NCBI GenBank assembly: GCA_945906905.1
Contig: CAMDSM010000002.1
Span: 1-33,842, forward strand
Direction: 5' to 3'
DNA length: 33,842 nt
From: Altererythrobacter xiamenensis
GTDB lineage: Bacteria; Pseudomonadota; Alphaproteobacteria; Sphingomonadales; Sphingomonadaceae
Shown in pieces: positions 29,495 through 33,842 of this stretch (its first letter is position 1; the number at the start of each line of letters is the position of its first letter). Position numbers and translations under genes: made by a program. The notes beneath the pieces are model-generated. The model searched no databases and was not told the origin of the DNA. It was given only the letters and a program-made list of their open reading frames with translations.

Positions 29495-29719
29495 ATGAAG
29501 AAGATTATTGCTGTCGCTGCTGCCGCCGTTCTGACCATGGGCGTTGCTGCCTGCGCCGAAGAAGCTGCTGAAGCTCCTGCTGAAGAAGCTGCTATGGAAG
29601 AAGTCGCTCCGGTTGAAGCCGTTGTGGAAGAAGCTGCCGTCGAAGGCGAAGCTGTTGTGGAAGAAGCCGCCGTTGAAGGCGAAGCCGCAATGGAAGAAGC
29701 CGCCGCTCCGGCCGAATAA
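29495..29719 (+). CDS. Small Ala/Glu-rich putative lipoprotein with internal 11-residue repeats
   Basis: MKKIIAVAAAAVLTMGVAACAEEAAEAPAEEAAMEEVAPVEAVVEEAAVEGEAVVEEAAVEGEAAMEEAAAPAE; lipobox-like GVAAC; RBS AAGGGGAAA upstream. Confidence 0.75.
   Translation: MKKIIAVAAAAVLTMGVAACAEEAAEAPAEEAAMEEVAPVEAVVEEAAVEGEAVVEEAAVEGEAAMEEAAAPAE
29621..29705 (+). repeat. 33-nt in-frame tandem repeat (about 2.5 copies)
   Basis: Copies at 29621-29653 and 29654-29686 both encode VVEEAAVEGEA; a degenerate partial third copy follows (AMEEAA). Confidence 0.8.
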
Positions 29720-29763
29720 TCGACCGAAGCAGGCAAGGCTTTCGGGCCTTCTGGCAAAGAATT

Positions 29764-29793
29764 GGGCCGGTTCCGCCATCGCGGGGCCGGCCC
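29764..29793. terminator. Stem-loop between convergent lipoprotein genes
   Basis: GGGCCGG (29764-29770) ... CCGGCCC (29787-29793) followed by TTGT. Confidence 0.45.
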
Positions 29794-29797
29794 TTGT

Positions 29798-30016
29798 CTA
29801 TTCTATCGCTGCTGTAGGCGCAGCCGATTCGCCCGGCTCAGTGCCCGGTTCCACCAACACTTCGTTAGGCAGGCGTTGCTGGTCGAGCATTTCGGCAGCC
29901 TGATCGAGGGCCTTGGCCTCGCCAACAGTCACTCCGCCGGGTCCGGGATCGGTGTCCGCCTCACCGCAGCCGCTCAGCACAGCAAGCACGCCGAGCATGA
30001 GTGCGGCGCGAATCAC
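29798..30016 (-). CDS. Small putative lipoprotein
   Basis: MIRAALMLGVLAVLSGCGEADTDPGPGGVTVGEAKALDQAAEMLDQQRLPNEVLVEPGTEPGESAAPTAAIE; lipobox VLSGC; 4-nt overlap with the upstream gene. Confidence 0.7.
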   Translation of the reverse strand: MIRAALMLGVLAVLSGCGEADTDPGPGGVTVGEAKALDQAAEMLDQQRLPNEVLVEPGTEPGESAAPTAAIE

Positions 30017-32224: not shown

Positions 32225-32252
32225 TACCACTTGCAATGGCCACCAAATCACG

Positions 32253-32272
32253 TAAATATGATATCATATTTA
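32253..32272. promoter_or_regulatory. Perfect 20-bp AT-rich palindrome, candidate operator for the SPFH-RHH operon
   Basis: TAAATATGATATCATATTTA equals its own reverse complement; an extra TATATCA half-site follows (32271-32277). Lies in the ~70-bp recQ/SPFH gap, 20 nt before the SPFH start. Confidence 0.65.
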
Positions 32273-32292
32273 TATCAGATGGAGGGTATGGC

Positions 32293-33204
32293 ATGGCCGA
32301 AATTTCCAATGGCATGAACATCAGTCAGGAACGGCCCGCGCGCACGTTCAGCGGCTATGTGATGGCCGGTGTGATCCTTTTGGTGCTGGGGTTGATCGTC
32401 ACGGCATTTGTGCAGTTCTTCAGCGGCCCGATGAAAGACCCGGACGCGGGCAGGTTGGTGGTCAGTCTCATCGTCCTGATTCTGCTCGAACTGCTGCTGT
32501 TCAGCGGCTTTTACATGATCCAGCCCAACCAGGGCCGGGCGATCACGCTGTTCGGATCCTATCGCGGCACCGATCGCACCACCGGCCTGCGCTGGGTGTG
32601 GTTCTGGATGGGCAAGACCAAGATCTCGATGCGCGCCAACAACCTCATCTCCGACAAGATCAAGGTCAACGATCTGCGCGGCAATCCCATTGAAATGGCC
32701 GCCCAAGTAGTGTGGCGCGTGGTCGATACAGCGCAGGCCTTGTATGATGTCGATGACTACAAGGCCTTCGTCATGGTCCAGATTGAGGCGGCAGTGCGGA
32801 CCATCGGCTCGCGCTACCCCTATGACGATTTCGCCCATGCCGAAGTGACCTTGCGCGGGAACCACGATCAGGTTGGGGCGGAATTGCGCACAGAACTGAT
32901 CGCCCGGTTGCAAACCGCCGGGATCACGGTCGACGAATGCGGCTTTACGCACCTGGCCTATGCCCAGGAAATCGCCGGGGCCATGCTGCGCCGCCAGCAG
33001 GCCGAAGCGGTGGTCGCCGCGCGCAAGACCATGGTCGAAGGCGCGGTTGGCATGGTGGAAATGGCGCTGGAGCTGCTCAGCGCCAAGAACGTGGTTCATC
33101 TGGACGATGAACGGCGCGCGGCCATGGTCAGCAATCTGATGGTGGTGCTGTGTGGTGACCGCGACACCCAGCCCGTGGTCAATGCTGGATCGCTGTATCA
33201 GTAA
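32293..33204 (+). CDS. SPFH domain-containing membrane protein
   Basis: Two N-terminal TM helices, then [33 protein letters not shown]...[64 protein letters not shown]. Start at ATG 32293 (GGAGGG upstream). Confidence 0.9.
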
Positions 33205-33216
33205 GGCGGACGCGGC

Positions 33217-33456
33217 GTGCCACTTCCTCCTAAGCCGAATCTGGCGAAAAAAGCCTTCCCGTTGCGGATAGACCAGCCACTGTATGACGCGGTGGAACGG
33301 CTTGCTGCAGCAGACCTTCGTTCGGTAAACGCCGAATTGGAGGTGCTGCTGCGCGAGGCGCTGGGGCGGCGCGGGATCAGGGTTGCAGTGGGCGAACGCG
33401 CGCCGCGTGGACGACCGCCGAAAGGTGGGGCACCGAAGGGGGAAGTAACGCAGTGA
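33217..33456 (+). CDS. Arc-like ribbon-helix-helix DNA-binding protein
   Basis: AKKAFPLRIDQPLYDAVERLAAADLRSVNAELEVLLREALGRRG fits the RHH pattern (beta strand FPLRI, then two helices with RSVNAELEVLL); basic C-terminal tail. GTG start. Confidence 0.8.
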   Translation: MPLPPKPNLAKKAFPLRIDQPLYDAVERLAAADLRSVNAELEVLLREALGRRGIRVAVGERAPRGRPPKGGAPKGEVTQ

Positions 33457-33842
33457 AATTCGGCATTTTTGACCATGTTGACGATAGCGGCCTGCCCTTA
33501 GCCGATCACTATGCCGCGCGGCTGGAGATGGTGGCGGCCTATGAGCGGGCGGGGTTCCAAGCCTATCACGTGGCCGAACATCACGGCACGCCTCTTGGCT
33601 CTGCGCCGTCACCAGCGGTCTATCTGGCCGCGGTCAGCCAGCGCACCACCTCGCTCAGGTTTGGCCCGCTGGTGTTCTTGTTGCCGCTGTATCATCCGCT
33701 GCGCCTGATCGAGGAGATCGCCATGCTCGATGCCTTGTCGGGCGGGCGGCTGGAATTTGGCTATGGCCGCGGCATCTCGCCGATCGAGATGGGCTTTTAC
33801 GGCGTCGATATGACCGAGCAGGCCGATCGCGCCGCCGAAACG
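33453..33842 (+). CDS. LLM class flavin-dependent oxidoreductase (luciferase-like), 3' end outside window
   Basis: Hand translation from GTG 33453: MKFGIFDHVDDSGLPLADHYAARLEMVAAYERAGFQAYHVAEHHGTPLGSAPSPAVYLAAVSQRTTSLRFGPLVFLLPLYHPLRLIEEIAMLDALSGGRLEFGYGRGISPIEMGFYG. Overlaps the RHH stop (GTGA). Absent from the ORF track because it runs off the edge. Confidence 0.93.
   Translation, partial: MKFGIFDHVDDSGLPLADHYAARLEMVAAYERAGFQAYHVAEHHGTPLGSAPSPAVYLAAVSQRTTSLRFGPLVFLLPLYHPLRLIEEIAMLDALSGGRLEFGYGRGISPIEMGFYGVDMTEQADRAAET

Follow-up and report, generated by a model that had tools for sequence, protein, structure and literature searches.

The perfect palindrome in front of the SPFH gene is very probably the core of an operator by which the 79-aa Arc-like ribbon–helix–helix (RHH) protein encoded downstream autoregulates the SPFH–RHH operon. 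The following features were located in the window, i.e., the whole stretch of 33,842 bp that was analysed:

32231 to 32236, plus strand: TTGCAA, probably a −35-like element (offset −28 relative to the central box), proposed from relatives, which have TTGA or TTGC there
32248 to 32255, no strand: where the left satellite box would lie; the sequence of the window (TCACGTAA) is degenerate there, from the alignment and the position profile
32253 to 32272, no strand: perfect 20-bp palindrome TAAATATGATATCATATTTA, which holds the predicted central operator box, from the sequence
32259 to 32266, no strand: predicted central operator box TGATATCA, near-invariant core of SPFH–RHH operons, from conservation
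32270 to 32277, no strand: putative right satellite box TTATATCA with a perfect half ATATCA (32272 to 32277), 11 bp from the central box, from half-site enrichment
32281 to 32286, plus strand: Shine–Dalgarno-like GGAGGG preceding the SPFH start, from the sequence
32293 to 33204, plus strand: first gene of the operon, encoding an SPFH/Band_7 protein of 303 aa (PF01145, E=2.1e-18)
33217 to 33456, plus strand: gene with a GTG start for the Arc-like RHH protein of 79 aa, which is proposed to bind the operator, from profile similarity and its position after SPFH

The palindrome is exact, as the original prediction had it, and lies inside a gap, estimated there at about 70 bp and measured as 68 bp, which separates the stop codon of recQ (32224) from the ATG of the SPFH gene (32293). 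It is the sole perfect 20-bp palindrome in the whole window, perfect 22-bp palindromes are absent from these 33,842 bp, and the exact 20-mer occurs once across the 2.73-Mb assembly. The stretch had also been named as the most AT-rich one, and indeed the 25-mer starting at 32253 ranks first in the window with 22 of 25 positions being A or T. The second ATATCA that had been pointed out is likewise present (32261 to 32266 and 32272 to 32277, 11 bp apart). Since a first-order Markov sequence of the length of the window already yields 0.115 perfect 20-bp palindromes on average, the symmetry by itself is only mildly unlikely and we take it as weak evidence. The decisive evidence for the predicted site is its conservation rather than its symmetry.

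A motif of the TGATATCA type had been expected in the promoters of orthologous operons, its absence there having been named as a refutation, and the proposal withstood this check. Of 201 loci with an RHH orthologue, 195 have this box with at most one mismatch before the operon (174 exactly, 21 with one mismatch). The loci were drawn from Alphaproteobacteria, other Proteobacteria and Acidobacteriota, i.e., from two phyla, and are phylogenetically related so that the counts are not independent. The count covers the region from −200 to +60 relative to the estimated start; motif-retrieved loci were excluded and the divergent RHH loci L220 and L221 were set aside. Four of the six exceptions (L077, L079, L268 and L287) hold the box farther upstream, and the RHH carriers without a clear box among the 201 loci are L062, where it is degenerate, and L320, where it is absent. 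In control windows drawn from the same loci the exact box was found once in 3852. In the Asticcacaulis loci L077 and L079 an additional gene stands before SPFH, and the array, about 250 bp ahead of SPFH, apparently fronts that gene.

In the upstream regions of the 80 SPFH orthologue loci, which were obtained by protein similarity and do not include the window's own locus (L001), the box or its one-mismatch form lies about 20–50 bp before the start. Most Sphingomonadales have a second NGATAT on the left of the box at a distance of 11 bp; other loci, among them the window, have ATATCR on the right at the same distance. The same box precedes SPFH in distant proteobacteria and in Acidobacteriota. 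The outer bases of the 20-bp palindrome differ among the clades; conserved is the 8-bp TGATATCA, repeated at a pitch of 11 bp. Because the outer bases vary, we regard the box as the probable recognition unit of the site. The earlier proposal of an RHH operator has to be modified in this point: the conserved motif, the satellites at 11 bp and the linkage of the site to the RHH gene (see below) speak for it, but its unit appears to be the 8-bp box and not the 20-bp palindrome.

When the sequences were anchored on the central box, half-sites were numerous solely at −11 (95 of 159 sites) and +11 (45 of 159). At these two offsets the mean similarity to TGATATCA exceeds the background by about 6–15 standard deviations in Sphingomonadales-type loci, by 9–15 in other Proteobacteria and by 22 in Acidobacteriota. 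Because additional boxes or half-boxes are seen at exactly −11 and +11 in all three groups, we read the site as a predicted array of up to three units at a pitch of one helical turn. Of the satellites, the alphaproteobacterial sites retain the outer halves (TGATATaa-ata-TGATATCA-taa-ttATATCA), and the other clades either the inner halves or the complete boxes (TATCA-N3-TGATATCA-N3-TGATA). The left satellite position reads YGATATAA in most Sphingomonadales of the alignment. In addition the flanks change in a complementary, paired manner, at positions −1 and 8 in 99 of the 159 sites (63 expected from shuffles) and at positions −5 and 12 in 92 (59.5 expected), which is as expected if the site were recognized as a dyad.

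The start of the SPFH gene is placed at 32293, from where the orthologues align; a start at the other in-frame ATG (32236) would place the operator within the N-terminal extension and is therefore unlikely. In 79 of the 80 fetched SPFH orthologue loci the RHH gene follows immediately after SPFH, the exception being L058, and the same order is found in other Proteobacteria and in Acidobacteriota. Within the conserved pair no toxin gene was found next to the RHH gene; its constant partner is SPFH/Band_7. Further downstream in the window (33453 to 33842) there is a luciferase-like monooxygenase gene whose GTG start overlaps the stop codon of the RHH gene (GTGA), suggesting that the two may be translationally coupled. 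A relative of this gene follows RHH in just 3 of 81 loci. Short small ORFs rich in alanine and glutamate are present on both strands between an uppP-like gene and recQ (region 29495 to 30016 of the window).

The 79-aa protein of the window gave no match at 1e-3 to the Pfam and NCBIfam models. With a profile of 18 orthologues the best relatives of solved structure were Arc repressors (pArc 1u9p, 3.9e-5; Arc 1arq/1par/1bdt, 0.016; 9pio, “Arc family DNA-binding protein”, 0.019). The Arc model PF03869 was weakly matched by 8 of the 18 members (best 4.6e-4), the protein of the window scoring 16.1 bits and thus below the Pfam Arc cut-off of 20.4 bits; several members also weakly resemble the Pfam families FitA-like_RHH, HicB and ParD_like. 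The AlphaFold model of the monomer consists of one helix (20 to 51) and no strand at a mean pLDDT of 74, a monomer model being a poor test of an obligate intertwined dimer. Judged by the similarity of this profile to solved RHH proteins, the 79-aa protein is a predicted member of the Arc-like ribbon–helix–helix family. The Sphingomonadales RHH proteins carry a basic, AT-hook-like RGRPPK tail at the C-terminus (33400 to 33456 in the window), which has no counterpart in the other clades. The operator flanks are AT-richer alongside the RGRP-tailed proteins (0.745 vs 0.653), a difference confounded by phylogeny and by the overlap with the −10 region.

We also analysed which of the two genes the box accompanies. 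Among 399 genomes of the phylum the RHH gene is present in 45, SPFH in 46 and both in 43. The box is absent in all six assessable SPFH loci without RHH (L058, L129, L130, L131, L249 and L250, most of them distant), and in the genome of L058 no RHH homologue was found anywhere. A seventh RHH-less locus has the box; it appears to be L175, which is cut by a contig end so that the absence of RHH cannot be judged. Conversely, four loci have RHH but no intact SPFH (L268, L272, L286 and L298), and each of them has kept the box. In L272 the array GGTATCAATGTGATATCACTTTGATACC stands directly before the RHH ATG with TTGACA upstream. Hence, as far as these loci tell, the box is linked to the RHH gene and not to the SPFH gene. 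In the acidobacterial locus L268 operator and RHH gene are both intact, and between them lies a remnant of SPFH with a large internal deletion.

In the family of the window the spaced motif was detected in 18 of 61 genomes. In the genomes carrying SPFH these places front SPFH, and outside of such places the motif is near-absent in the family. The places in genomes lacking SPFH (L106, L114 and L124) have no RHH gene nearby and look accidental. Since the spaced motif thus fronts SPFH and the remaining places are apparently accidental, the RHH protein is in all probability a local, single-site regulator.

In 86 of 102 Sphingomonadales-type sites TATAAA, TATAAT or TATTAA is found at offsets −8 to −3, and TTGA or TTGC at −28 to −30 in most of these 102 sites. 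In the Sphingomonadales the left box is therefore predicted to overlap the −10 region and the central box the probable transcription start. The −10 region of the window is weak, reading CGTAAA or, at 32253 to 32258, TAAATA, and a scan of the window site found no consensus sigma-70 promoter. Because both the left box and the −10 region of the window are weak, the central and the right box are likely to be the operative sites there.

These findings would be explained if RHH dimers bound to the 8-bp TGATATCA boxes, which, being spaced by 11 bp or one helical turn, would be presented on a single face of the DNA. In the window the full central box and the right half-box would be occupied. Because the array overlaps the −10 region and the probable start, its occupancy would be expected to exclude RNA polymerase, and this block would hold the SPFH and RHH proteins at a set level. 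We infer that the RHH protein binds directly, with a dimer stoichiometry as outlined, that it represses rather than activates, and that a releasing signal exists. As to the latter, the SPFH membrane scaffold might itself be the sensor and bind or release the effector-less RHH protein according to the state of the membrane, an idea which we consider doubtful. If true, the pair would be a minimal two-protein switch for membrane stress that is conserved in at least two phyla.

The sign of the regulation cannot be read from a sequence, and SPFH is a near-constant partner of RHH; the RHH protein could thus bind and activate, or SPFH could be a required co-regulator. Both are unlikely as the array overlaps the −10 region and the start, the usual place of repressors, and as the operator persists in the four RHH loci without intact SPFH, which implies that SPFH is dispensable for the maintenance of the site. 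Adjacency and co-inheritance of RHH fall short of proving binding, and another regulator encoded in trans could bind the box and control SPFH without the adjacent RHH protein being the ligand. This we regard as distinctly unlikely: the box tracks RHH in both directions, being absent with SPFH alone and kept with RHH alone, the spaced motif is essentially confined to a single locus per genome in the family, unlike the sites of a regulon, and small symmetric boxes at a pitch of 11 bp fit RHH dimers.

It is very improbable that the AT-rich block is a mere −10 element with its spacer and that the symmetry is accidental. The Sphingomonadales hexamers at −8 to −3 do resemble a −10 element with TTGA or TTGC upstream; the invariant part, however, is TGATATCA, which lies downstream of the hexamer, and the symmetric box, the two-sided satellites at 11 bp and the loss of the site along with the RHH gene would be left unexplained. 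Although inverted repeats can form hairpins, we rejected an RNA reading (a hairpin, a terminator for the gene upstream, an element of a leader) as hardly credible, since a G+C stem, a loop and a T-run are all absent and the terminator scan was negative, recQ is upstream in just 18 of 81 loci and yet the box is near-universal, and the primary sequence of the core is conserved with the predicted start inside the box.

Autoregulation by RHH proteins is textbook knowledge. In the open-access literature searched, neither this regulator nor its operator nor the pairing with SPFH was found to be described, an absence which is no proof. The regulator–operator pair of the SPFH–RHH operon thus appears to be undescribed, the kind of regulation being known. 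For most bacterial SPFH proteins we know of no established physiological role or trigger. An operator and its regulator at a single locus in two phyla would provide a direct handle on such a protein, as deletion of RHH or mutation of the box should free the SPFH protein from control. The RHH family, apparently undescribed and below the Pfam cut-offs, gains a predicted target sequence, and an RHH autoregulator as is typical of toxin–antitoxin units can, if our reading is right, pair stably with a membrane scaffold.

P22 Arc is the best solved relative of the RHH profile, with an RSVN-type start of helix B and an F-x-L-R strand in common, and its dimers occupy neighbouring half-sites separated by roughly one turn of the helix. 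Arc functions in phage immunity, however, whereas the RHH gene studied here belongs to a chromosomal operon with an SPFH partner, and the operator sequences differ. In Escherichia coli the RHH protein RelB autorepresses its own operon, its dimers binding palindromic half-sites of relO that are strictly spaced along a single face of the DNA; in relO, four [A/T]TGT[A/C]A hexads make up two half-sites of 12 bp, and the co-repressor is the toxin (PMC2812701). The predicted SPFH–RHH operator likewise has palindromic sites with a fixed spacing and an RHH product of its own operon as proposed ligand, but its boxes are TGATATCA at a pitch of 11 bp and a toxin is not adjacent. The nearest description found in the literature concerns PspA-linked operons for membrane stress, some of which reportedly end in an RHH transcription factor (PMC11237479). 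In that case spermidine-synthase-like genes accompany CesT/Tir-PspA, the paper names no operator, and the unit is not the two-gene SPFH–RHH pair.

The RHH antitoxins of type II toxin–antitoxin systems (FitA, HicB, ParD-like) share with the present family the weak Pfam similarity and, as proposed here, the autoregulation by the RHH partner. The partner is different, being an SPFH membrane protein in a conserved pair without a toxin gene. In locus L095, which belongs to the window's own genome (1493 to 1521; G000:C26:16981-17001), another RHH gene (90 aa, PF01402) is followed by a gene with a PIN domain (PF01850). Directly upstream of this RHH gene lie two exact TGATATCA boxes at a distance of 13 bp and a further TGATAT. 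By its gene content this locus is a putative VapBC-like toxin–antitoxin unit with a similar operator core and a different pitch.
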